From: Rhodohalobacter sulfatireducens
GTDB lineage: Bacteria; Bacteroidota; Rhodothermia; Balneolales; Balneolaceae
Assembly: GCF_022012475.1 (NCBI RefSeq)
Contig: NZ_JAKLWS010000004.1
Span: 62,001 to 126,000, forward strand
DNA length: 64,000 nucleotides
Direction: 5' to 3'
Shown piece by piece: positions 34,603-61,494 of this stretch. The notes under the pieces were generated by a model that was not told where the DNA came from, ran no database searches, and saw nothing but the letters and a program-made list of their open reading frames with translations. A program made the position numbers and the translations under genes. Position 1 is the stretch's first letter; every line of letters starts with the position of its first letter.

Positions 34603-35018
34603 AGAATTCTGAACAAGGAATAACGAATCTCGAAAATTCTGAATTTTGAATTTTGTCTGCTCCCGAAAGTTTTCGGTTCAACTCTCGTTTTGAAGGTCTT
34701 CCTTCGAAATGCTCACCTGAAGCTCCGCTTCTACTCCTTTGGGTCTAAAAACTTGACAATGGTCATTCCCATTACCCCTCGACAAACATTTTGCTTTTAT
34801 CTCACTCCTCAACTCGGGGTTTTTATATTTTGACTTTTATAACCCAGGGTTACGCTCGTTTTACTCGCTTACACTGGGCTATTTTATTTAACTCCTTCGG
34901 AGTTTTTATAAATTGCTGAAACTTCACTGTTTACTGCTTGTTGATCACTGAATAACTGCAAATCACTTGATTCAAACTCAGAATCCCGTTATCGTGTCAA
35001 CAAAATAAAACAGTCGAA
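34603..35018. repeat. Gene-free stretch with several REP-like palindromes
   Basis: No gene is seen in 34603-35155. The stretch holds tandem GAATTTTG units (34640-34656), CCGAAA/TTTCGG hairpin (34663-34676), an imperfect stem with AACCCAGGG and ACTGGGCT arms (34841-34880), an AACTCC/GGAGTT hairpin followed by TTT (34890-34907), and degenerate CACTGTTTACTG units (34918-34960). These look like decayed palindromic intergenic repeats of the kind spread by RAYT/IS200-type enzymes; none of the latter is in the window. Confidence 0.5.
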
Positions 35019-35115
35019 GACATTGTATTTTTTCTTATCACTACAATCTATTGCAATAGGCAAACTGTAATTTGCTGTTTCTGAGCATATAGCCAGCGCT
35101 AAAAATACAATGTCT
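35019..35115. repeat. Perfect 15-bp inverted repeat, 97 bp overall
   Basis: AGACATTGTATTTTT at 35019-35033 and its exact complement at 35101-35115 enclose a 67-base core that itself contains a GCAAA/TTTGC stem (35060-35075) and an ATTGCAAT palindrome (35050-35057). It ends 40 bases before the S9 peptidase start. It could be a small non-autonomous element, an operator with distant arms, or a structured leader. Confidence 0.7.
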
Positions 35116-35155
35116 CACACTCATCCGATGACTCTATAATCTAGAACTATATCTC

Positions 35156-37255
35156 ATGCGACGTTTTTTATTTTCTTTGATCCTGCTTTTTGGTTTTACT
35201 TCACAGGGTGTTTTTTCACAAAATGTCCCAACCGACCTTACTCTCAAGAAAATTTTTCTTGAACCAATGATCCCCGGAATTCGCCCCGATTTGGAATTTG
35301 TTTCCGGAGATCAATCCAAAATCTTTTTTGAGTGGAATGATTCATCCTACTACGAAACCGGTTTGTATTCTGTAGACTTGTATGGAGACAATCTTGAAGA
35401 TGTAGACGATGATGAAGTATACGAGCCCATACACTCACCGGACGGGTCAAAAATGGCCTACATAAAAAATGATGACATCTATGTTGCTGATGCAGATGGA
35501 TCGAGTGAGCAATTAGTTGTACAATCACAGGAAAGTGAATCCGACCTGAACTGGTCACCCAATAGCGAAAAGCTTGCGTTTGTGATGGACGGCAATGTGT
35601 GGGTCACAAACGTTCAATCCCCGGCAATTCAGCAAGTGACGAAAAAAGAAACAGACGCACCTGATTTTAATATTTACGAGTGGGTGGGTAACGATCAACT
35701 TGTTGTTGGCCAGGCTGACTATTCGGATGCCCGAACCATCTATTTCCCTGAATATGTGGATACGTTTGTGGAACCGGGTGGTGATGTGCGAGGTATCCCC
35801 GAGACATCTGTTTTTGTCGCTTCTCTTGATACGACTGCTCTTGATACACTCGAAACCGGTACTCATCGATCAACCTACAGTACATCTAAAGATGGCCGAT
35901 ACGTTGCAATTGATTGGGCAGATGCACCGTTAAAGCATCGAAAAATCATAGTTCATGATCTGCAGGAAGGTTCAAGAATTGTTGCTTTCGAGGATTCAAC
36001 AGACGGATGGATCACGGATAGCTCTACTGAACGCGAAATGGCATTTTCACCTGAGGATGACCGGCTTTTCTTTTTATCTGAACAAGTCGGGTGGAATCAC
36101 ATCTATACAGTACATGCCGATGGATCAAATCTCACACAGCATACGGATGGCGATTATTACGTACCCTGGGCGAGCTGGATTGATGATGAAACCATCGTAT
36201 TTGCCAGTAACGAAGAAGATTATGGCGTCCGACAGATCTATACTTTAAATGTTGAAAACAGTGATGTTACGCAACTGACTGAAGAAACAGCTTATCGATA
36301 TGAATTTGAACTGACACCGGATCGATCGAACCTGATCTATGCAAAAACATTTTTTAATCGACCCTATGATCTGTACCGGCTCAACCTCGAAGATGCGGAT
36401 GAAGAGATCCAACTGACAAACTCAGTCCCCGAACGTTTTTACGATTACGACTGGCAGCGCGAGGAGTATGTTCGGTTTACGGGTCGCGATGGTGAAACGG
36501 AATTATCGGCTTCACTGCTCTATCCTCAAGATTATGATGAAAGCCGGGAATACCCGGTTGTAGTGTTTGTTCACGGTGCCGGATCGCTACAGAATGTGTA
36601 CCAGGGATGGTCTGAAAATTACTGGCGCGAATACATGTTCAACCAGTTATTGAACAAGCATGGGTATATCGTACTGGAAGTGGATTATCGCCACAGTCTC
36701 GGGTACGGACGCGATTTTCGTGAGGATGTAACCAACTGGATGGGCAAGTACGAAACACAGGATATCGTCGACGGACTCGATTGGGCTGAAGAGCACACCG
36801 GCGGAGCACTGGACCTGGACCGTGTTGGAATATACGGCGGAAGCTACGGCGGATTTATGGCACTATACGCCCTCACCGCTGCTCCAGAACGGTTCGATGC
36901 CGGTGCCGCACTTCGAAAAGTAACCAACTGGCGAAATTACTATTACGCCAATCCATGGTATACCCTTCCGCGTCTAGGTGATCCGGAAGAAGTTCCCGAG
37001 CACTACGACCGAAGCTCTCCTCTCACCTACGCCGAGGAATTAGAGCACCCCGTTTTGCTTCTTCATGGACTTGAAGATGACAACGTCGGGTTCCAGGATG
37101 CCATGCAATACACCGAGAAACTGATCCAATCCGGCCACGAAGAGTTCGACCTGATGGTCTACCCTTCTGAACCGCACAGCTTCACCGATGCAGATTCCTG
37201 GTATGATGAGTATCGACGGATTTTTGAGTTTTTTGAGGAGGAGCTTAAGGAGTAA
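35156..37255 (+). CDS. S9 family prolyl oligopeptidase / dipeptidyl peptidase IV-like
   Basis: Exported serine peptidase of 699 residues that removes dipeptides or cuts short peptides. It has a signal peptide (about 1-22), a beta-propeller domain (about 50-445) with repeated blades, and an alpha/beta hydrolase domain with nucleophile Ser at about 563 in GGSYGGFM, acid near 641 in LEDDN and His at about 673 in SEPHSF. All three residues are present, so it should be active. It stands alone, preceded by a perfect 15-bp inverted repeat and followed by a heptamer repeat. Confidence 0.93.
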   Translation: MRRFLFSLILLFGFTSQGVFSQNVPTDLTLKKIFLEPMIPGIRPDLEFVSGDQSKIFFEWNDSSYYETGLYSVDLYGDNLEDVDDDEVYEPIHSPDGSKMAYIKNDDIYVADADGSSEQLVVQSQESESDLNWSPNSEKLAFVMDGNVWVTNVQSPAIQQVTKKETDAPDFNIYEWVGNDQLVVGQADYSDARTIYFPEYVDTFVEPGGDVRGIPETSVFVASLDTTALDTLETGTHRSTYSTSKDGRYVAIDWADAPLKHRKIIVHDLQEGSRIVAFEDSTDGWITDSSTEREMAFSPEDDRLFFLSEQVGWNHIYTVHADGSNLTQHTDGDYYVPWASWIDDETIVFASNEEDYGVRQIYTLNVENSDVTQLTEETAYRYEFELTPDRSNLIYAKTFFNRPYDLYRLNLEDADEEIQLTNSVPERFYDYDWQREEYVRFTGRDGETELSASLLYPQDYDESREYPVVVFVHGAGSLQNVYQGWSENYWREYMFNQLLNKHGYIVLEVDYRHSLGYGRDFREDVTNWMGKYETQDIVDGLDWAEEHTGGALDLDRVGIYGGSYGGFMALYALTAAPERFDAGAALRKVTNWRNYYYANPWYTLPRLGDPEEVPEHYDRSSPLTYAEELEHPVLLLHGLEDDNVGFQDAMQYTEKLIQSGHEEFDLMVYPSEPHSFTDADSWYDEYRRIFEFFEEELKE

Positions 37256-58469: not shown

Positions 58470-58589
58470 AGTTTATAGTATCACTAAGAAGAAAGAAATG
58501 GTTTTTTTGTGTTGGCTATAAAACTATGATCATTCACTTTTTTTGTGAATTGCAATCGTCTGAATTTCTCAAAGAAAAAATACCATTTC

Positions 58590-59300
58590 TCAAGTACCTT
58601 TCCCACTTCCATTCAAATAATTCGTAAGCATCGGGAATTGGTCGAACTGGAAATCGGCAGTTTGGTCTTCTTCAATTTCTGAGACAAACATTGTAAACCA
58701 GGCCGTGTTCCAGCCGGCATTTCTGCCGCCTACAATATCCGAGGAGTAGGAATCACCGACATATAAGATAGATTCACGGTCAACCCCTGCCCTCTCCGTT
58801 GCCACATCAAATACTTTTTGATGCGGTTTCATCACACCGATCTCTTCCGTAATCACAAAAAGATTGGTGTATTGGTCGAGCCCCATTTTCTGAATCTTCA
58901 TCTGCTGGGTTTCGAGAAATCCGTTAGTTACAATCCCTACCGGATGTTTCTCCACAACTTTTTCTAATGCTTCCCGGGCACCTTCAACCCAGCTCCAGTG
59001 ATTTTGATAGAACTGCATATAATTGTATCCAATCTCTTCACTTCTATCCGTGGAAAGTTCGAGTTTATCCATCGTGTCATGAAAACGGGAAATCTGCAGG
59101 CCATGCCGGTCGATCTTACCTTCCTGGTATTGCAACCAGAGCTTATGGTTGACTGATTTATAAGTACTCAGCCACTCATCCTGCGATACCTCTTGTAGTT
59201 CCGGAGTTGATTCATACAGGTCGTTTTGAGCTGCTGCTTCTGCGGAATCGTGATTGAGAAGTGTATTATCAAGATCAAAAAAGACAAAGTTTGGATTCAT
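58590..59300 (-). CDS. HAD-superfamily nucleotidase (YjjG-type)
   Basis: HAD phosphatase of 236 residues, probably acting on non-canonical pyrimidine nucleotides. The nucleophile motif is FFDLDNTLLNH (Asp9, Asp11), followed by VGIVTNGF (motif II Thr) and motif III/IV in VMKPHQKVF and LYVGDSYSSDIVGG. The cap domain is of the small alpha-helical type. Length is typical of YjjG. Own promoter is not resolved. Confidence 0.86.
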   Translation of the reverse strand: MNPNFVFFDLDNTLLNHDSAEAAAQNDLYESTPELQEVSQDEWLSTYKSVNHKLWLQYQEGKIDRHGLQISRFHDTMDKLELSTDRSEEIGYNYMQFYQNHWSWVEGAREALEKVVEKHPVGIVTNGFLETQQMKIQKMGLDQYTNLFVITEEIGVMKPHQKVFDVATERAGVDRESILYVGDSYSSDIVGGRNAGWNTAWFTMFVSEIEEDQTADFQFDQFPMLTNYLNGSGKGT

Positions 59301-61355: not shown

Positions 61356-61494
61356 TCAGCCTCTCAACAGACATGGTATTTTTTCGTAAAGCTTTAGTTC
61401 GTGTTAATTTTACGAACTTACGTAAGACTGAGGTGTATCATTAACGAAAAGAAAAAATACCCTATTTCACATCGAATGAGATAACCGATGCTAA

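Follow-up and report, generated by a model that had tools for sequence, protein, structure and literature searches.

A dispersed family of short hairpin elements in Rhodohalobacter, probably REPIN-like

The perfect inverted repeat just 5' of an S9 peptidase gene in the window (the whole 64-kb stretch of Rhodohalobacter sulfatireducens DNA that was analyzed) belongs to a family with about 45-50 copies in this genome. In our view the unit is probably hairpin DNA that is mobile but non-autonomous and resembles a REPIN, in effect an inverted REP doublet, with no link to the RAYT transposase by which REPINs are defined. It is likened here to a REPIN and not classed as one, because the RAYT test fails. 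The features of the window that bear on this reading are as follows.

35018 to 35115, no strand assigned: 98-bp hairpin element, a family unit made of arms and core (covariance model, 67.5 bits)
35018 to 35032, forward strand: left 15-bp arm AGACATTGTATTTTT, T-type at arm position 7
35033 to 35100, no strand assigned: variable 68-bp core, containing a 12-bp palindrome at 35048-35059 (60/68 identical to the orthologue in genome G005)
35101 to 35115, reverse strand: right 15-bp arm AAAAATACAATGTCT, perfect complement of the left arm
35119 to 35133, no strand assigned: single arm ACTCATCCGATGACT of the sister family AG[AT]CATCGGATGAGT, adjoining the element and recurring elsewhere in the genome
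35156 to 37255, forward strand: S9 peptidase of the prolyl oligopeptidase family with a DPPIV N-terminal domain (Pfam PF00326, E 5.9e-48; PF00930, E 6e-27)
58494 to 58590, no strand assigned: second family copy, 97 bp, arms slightly degraded (covariance model, 43.9 bits)
61369 to 61467, no strand assigned: third family copy, 99 bp, right arm degraded (covariance model, 37.2 bits)

Within the window's 64 kb, this is the single perfect 15-bp inverted repeat with arms no more than 110 bp apart, and 0 of 60 windows simulated with a first-order Markov model contained such a repeat, which bears out the preliminary description both on the existence of the repeat and on its being unexpected by chance. 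That description correctly gave 40 bases between the end of the right arm and the ATG of the peptidase at 35156; it had set the start of the element one base too late and counted 67 rather than 68 bp in the core. When folded as RNA, the element reaches a z of -3.3 relative to shuffles, with the arms contributing most. The palindrome and small stem that had been reported within the core are both present in the window: the palindrome, CTATTGCAATAG (35048-35059), is retained in the G005 orthologue, whereas the stem, GCAAA/TTTGC (35060-35064 and 35071-35075), is disrupted there in the alignment. Rfam searches around the element returned sub-threshold matches only, and a search of viral contigs with the element gave 0 matches.

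Two stretches upstream of the element are of separate interest. A repeat-like hairpin at 34843-34904 matches Acido-Lenti-1 of Rfam below threshold (26.2 bits against a cut-off of 37), and the ~55 bp directly 5' of the element (34960-35017) are near-identical between this genome (G000) and G005, exceeding the adjacent coding DNA. This conserved stretch is likely a promoter or regulatory region for S9.

The arm occurs 120 times in this genome at up to two mismatches, compared with 26 times for a reversed control, and a paired-pattern search recovered 29 exact arm pairs against 0 for the reversed pattern. The same paired pattern found units in 5 of the 40 genomes searched, including this one. A covariance model gave 101 strand-hits here (~50 units) and 72 in G005 (~36 units), matched two further copies in the window, and extended the family to 20 of 28 Rhodohalobacter genomes, the other eight giving no match, and to 24 of 92 Balneolaceae genomes in 3 of 21 genera. 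A scan of named genomes added relatives in Rhodohalobacter halophilus and in metagenome-assembled genomes, one labelled Balneolaceae and one Chitinophagaceae. The loci examined from this genome contain 46 units, and the counts below draw on overlapping unit sets: 74 distinct units in the analysis of arms and cores, 77 in that of gene context, and 106 in that of anatomy. The many dispersed copies found across this genome and its relatives run counter to the condition under which the preliminary description would have put the repeat down to chance, namely arms occurring nowhere else. They also show its MITE-like reading to point the right way, copies being numerous and dispersed, but the target duplications it anticipated are missing and a likeness to REP doublets or REPINs fits better than a classical MITE. 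The preliminary interpretation as a whole is partly supported.

Across the 106 units in the loci examined, the arms are nearly invariant and the cores differ. Unit length is 96-98 bp in 85 of the 106, with a few units of 63, 70, 79 and 94-103 bp. The arms vary at positions 2, 4, 7, 12, and 14, and the two arms of a unit change together; position 7 agrees between them in 101 of 106 units, where within-genome permutation gives a mean of 72.5 and a maximum of 84. In a REPIN each arm is a REP, an imperfect palindrome in its own right. Among the arm types here, AGACATGGTATGTCT and AGACTTCCGAAGTCT are palindromic and the common AGACATKGTATTTTT is, by eye, a poor palindrome. The core ends of the main family do not pair, and 70 family cores are no more structured internally than expected (mean z -0.35); the cores do carry a weak motif near each arm, one end having an extra T, and phased A/T tracts. 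Exact target duplications of 3-12 bp were present in 0 of 70 units. At L073:9792-9922, the core of one family unit holds an inserted hairpin repeat of the GCGAGCGTCTCGCTCGTGC type.

The hairpin is also bounded by a strict rule. The two bases that directly flank the arms on the outside form a Watson-Crick pair in 1 of 106 units against 29.3 expected, and are complementary in 0 of 70 and 0 of 77 units in the smaller, overlapping sets; in the sister families the counts are 0/18 and 0/5, but 2/9 in a third. Pairing is likewise avoided at the inner boundary of the arms (17/106 against 31.7 expected), although this inner avoidance is absent from a sister family (10/18 against 10.4 expected) and is therefore not general. 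When the outer pairs of tandem units are read on the transcribed strand, G,T occurs 6 times and A,C 8 times, so that G-U pairs are not avoided; the boundary rule therefore looks like one of DNA pairing, and an RNA-level cause was rejected. An extended stem with a bulge was also rejected, since within-element pairing beyond the arms is absent.

Several units share related cores within flanks that are unrelated from the arm ends on, most clearly L075/L131 (on different contigs), L046, and L079. The units at L064 and L065 share a flank and those at L086 and L170 stand in tandem, and the shared flank and tandem arrays point to duplication, not transposition. We found no exact empty site. Six orthologous pairs of units in G000 and G005 show long residence: their arms have 4 differences in 180, a conservation inflated by the loci having been picked by their arms, and their cores differ by ~20% in the better orientation. 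The retention of arms at old sites, in loci chosen by arms, would mean either selection or arm correction at each site, and their persistence through ~20% core divergence suggests that more than mobility is at work, with selection acting where the unit lies. Two of the six pairs have collinear flanks but a core in the opposite orientation, L060:14142/L078:9760, where both flanks align through, and L046:12818/L081:6663, where the right flank is weaker; the other four pairs, including that of the window, are unflipped. At a further syntenic site (L049:8620-8800 and L073:6800-6980, the latter on the reverse strand), G005 has a different long inverted repeat of the ACCCTAAATCCCTCCC type, of which only the left arm is left in G000, beside a family unit.

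Simple ORF calls put 37 of the 77 units in convergent gene gaps, 30 in tandem gaps, and 6 in divergent ones, with 4 unclassified, compared with 72, 243, and 80 of 395 background gaps, and 0 of the 77 lie within ORFs of at least 100 aa. The copies mostly adjoin gene 3' ends, and the position of the window's unit, 40 bases 5' of a start codon, is an unusual placement for the family.

Rhodohalobacter is a many-RAYT genus, with Y1 (RAYT-type) genes in 25 of 28 genomes. This genome has ten (loci L118-L135), several with distinct GC-rich flanking repeats of their own, and family arms were found beside none of the ten, nor beside the 8 examined of 13 in G005, where two units are separated from such a gene by ~4-5.5 kb. 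In G011 the covariance model gave 13 strand-hits, and there is no Y1 gene. Among the matches listed for G007, G013, and G017, no arm of the AGACTTCCGAAGTCT sister family comes closer than 2 kb to a Y1 gene. RAYT was dismissed as the mobiliser, the Y1 genes here being flanked by other, GC-rich repeats; counting against this dismissal, copy number correlates with Y1 gene count (Spearman 0.50, p 0.006), a correlation for which genome size and completeness are confounders and to which G011 is an exception. A parent insertion sequence with the same ends and a transposase was not noticed in the loci examined.

The plan recurs in sister families with other AG[A/T]C-ended 15-bp arms, each with its own fixed lengths. 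The AGACTTCCGAAGTCT family reaches 34 exact pairs in G017, 29 in G013, and 28 in G020, and is present in 6 of 28 genomes in all; its cores listed for G017 and G013 are clearly related and lie on many contigs. The AGACCCGTCGGGTTT family (80-82 bp, 5 pairs) occurs in G005 only, and AG[AT]CATCGGATGAGT forms paired units of 61-80 bp in 9 of 28 genomes.

We favor the REPIN-like reading, in which two inverted 15-bp REP-like arms keep a constant spacing and the core between them is free to vary. The active form would be one DNA strand folded on the 15-bp stem, and a putative enzyme may copy this strand to new sites between genes, leaving no target duplication. Recognition or selection would act on the stem and not on the core, and core flips may arise from template switching or recombination between the arms. 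Dispersed copies, fixed length, co-varying arms, the exact 15-bp boundary, and the location 3' of genes all speak for this reading, as do the relatedness of cores between unrelated sites, the vertical inheritance of units whose arms stay the same, and occasional core inversion. Against it, the arms adjoin no Y1 gene in the loci examined, G011 has model matches without a Y1 gene, and the cores of the main family are mostly unrelated, recent copying being seen in the sister family and not there. The shared flank and tandem arrays, the persistence of arms while cores diverge, and the failure to find an exact empty site count against it as well. The elements could instead form a separate class of mobile hairpin, 'AG[A/T]C-tagged' with 15-bp stems, moved by a putative non-RAYT enzyme that measures exactly a 15-bp stem and a family-specific loop length, the non-pairing flank rule being the footprint of that measurement; we put this forward tentatively, and on balance doubt it.

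The units might also be host-functional structures that are not, or no longer, mobile and that selection maintains site by site. Each would then be a hairpin of exactly 15 bp, or two protein-binding sites set a constant distance apart, close to a gene end. The strict outer-base rule, the phased A/T tracts and weak end motifs of the cores, and the six orthologous pairs (arms 4/180 different, cores ~20%) would suit such a role, but the arm conservation is inflated by the selection of loci, related cores lie at unrelated sites, a sister family reaches 28-34 copies in some genomes, and the family is missing from 8 of 28 genomes of the genus and from most of the Balneolaceae. Paired protein sites would also leave the matching type of both arms unexplained, and we regard a purely host-functional structure as rather unlikely. 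A classical MITE, the short derivative of a DDE insertion sequence, would account for 15-bp terminal inverted repeats on short, dispersed, intergenic elements; it is improbable given that target duplications of at least 3 bp are found in 0 of 70 units, no longer element with these arms was seen, the cores are fixed in length yet unrelated, and several arm families of the genus follow the same 15-bp plan.

The two core flips between species raise the idea of an invertible DNA switch, with a recombinase turning the core between the arms and so altering how the next gene is expressed. Loops would, however, also be flipped by template switching at short inverted repeats. Most orthologous pairs are unflipped (4/6, the window's among them), the usual location at gene 3' ends makes little sense for a promoter switch, and the window's unit was searched for a sigma-70-like promoter and none was found, which together make a switch very improbable. 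The preliminary description had also proposed a structured mRNA leader or operator for the S9 gene. In G005 the element and its position are retained (core 60/68 identical, arms unchanged), and it has a highly conserved stretch on its upstream side and the start codon on the other, as a leader or operator specific to that gene would. A survey of S9 genes, however, gave 26 matches in 25 of 28 genomes, and of the 22 loci scanned, which excluded the four partial loci L261, L262, L263, and L265, only 2 have a unit, those of this genome and G005, the two closest species; tens of other copies adjoin other genes, mostly at their 3' ends. An S9-specific regulator was rejected on this survey, and we give such a leader or operator almost no weight. 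On the REPIN-like reading that we prefer, the S9 peptidase is a bystander, and the element happens to lie in its leader region.

Bacterial MITEs are short, dispersed, non-coding elements with terminal inverted repeats. The family resembles them in all of these respects and differs in that target duplications are absent, no parent element was noticed in the loci examined, and cores are unshared across the main family. A literature search of partial coverage returned no earlier report of repeats like these from the phylum. In bacteria, REP doublets rank with the most frequent repeats, and for some REP families no transposase is said to be dedicated to them (PMC3733652). Here, sister families within a single genus follow a common plan, keep cleanly to their length rules, and observe a boundary rule that is almost absolute (1/106), which gives a concrete handle both for finding the enzyme and for telling selection at the site from rules of insertion.

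REPINs are REP doublets that form hairpins, with highly conserved inverted ~16-mers (Bertels and Rainey 2011, PMC3116915). As in that account, the family has conserved inverted arms around a less conserved spacer of constrained length, compensatory arm changes, and extragenic, multicopy units; doublets dominate, tandem arrays occur, and persistence is long. Unlike the REPINs described there, the loci examined have no cognate RAYT (Y1) gene with the same repeats beside it, the arms are AT-rich, 15 bp long, and AG[A/T]C-ended, the core ends of the main family avoid pairing, the bases flanking the arms are almost never complementary, and cores are sometimes flipped. CGTC-tagged REPs form dimers and are described as having no transposase of their own (Di Nocera et al. 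2013, PMC3733652). Compared by eye with that description, the arms here lack a CGTC, TGTC, or CCTC tag at the 5' side of the stem, and neither arm contains an 8-9 bp stem with a 4-5 base loop of its own. Like the CGTC-tagged REPs, however, the units are dimers with no associated transposase gene, whose spacers are similar in length and different in sequence, and which lie near gene 3' ends.
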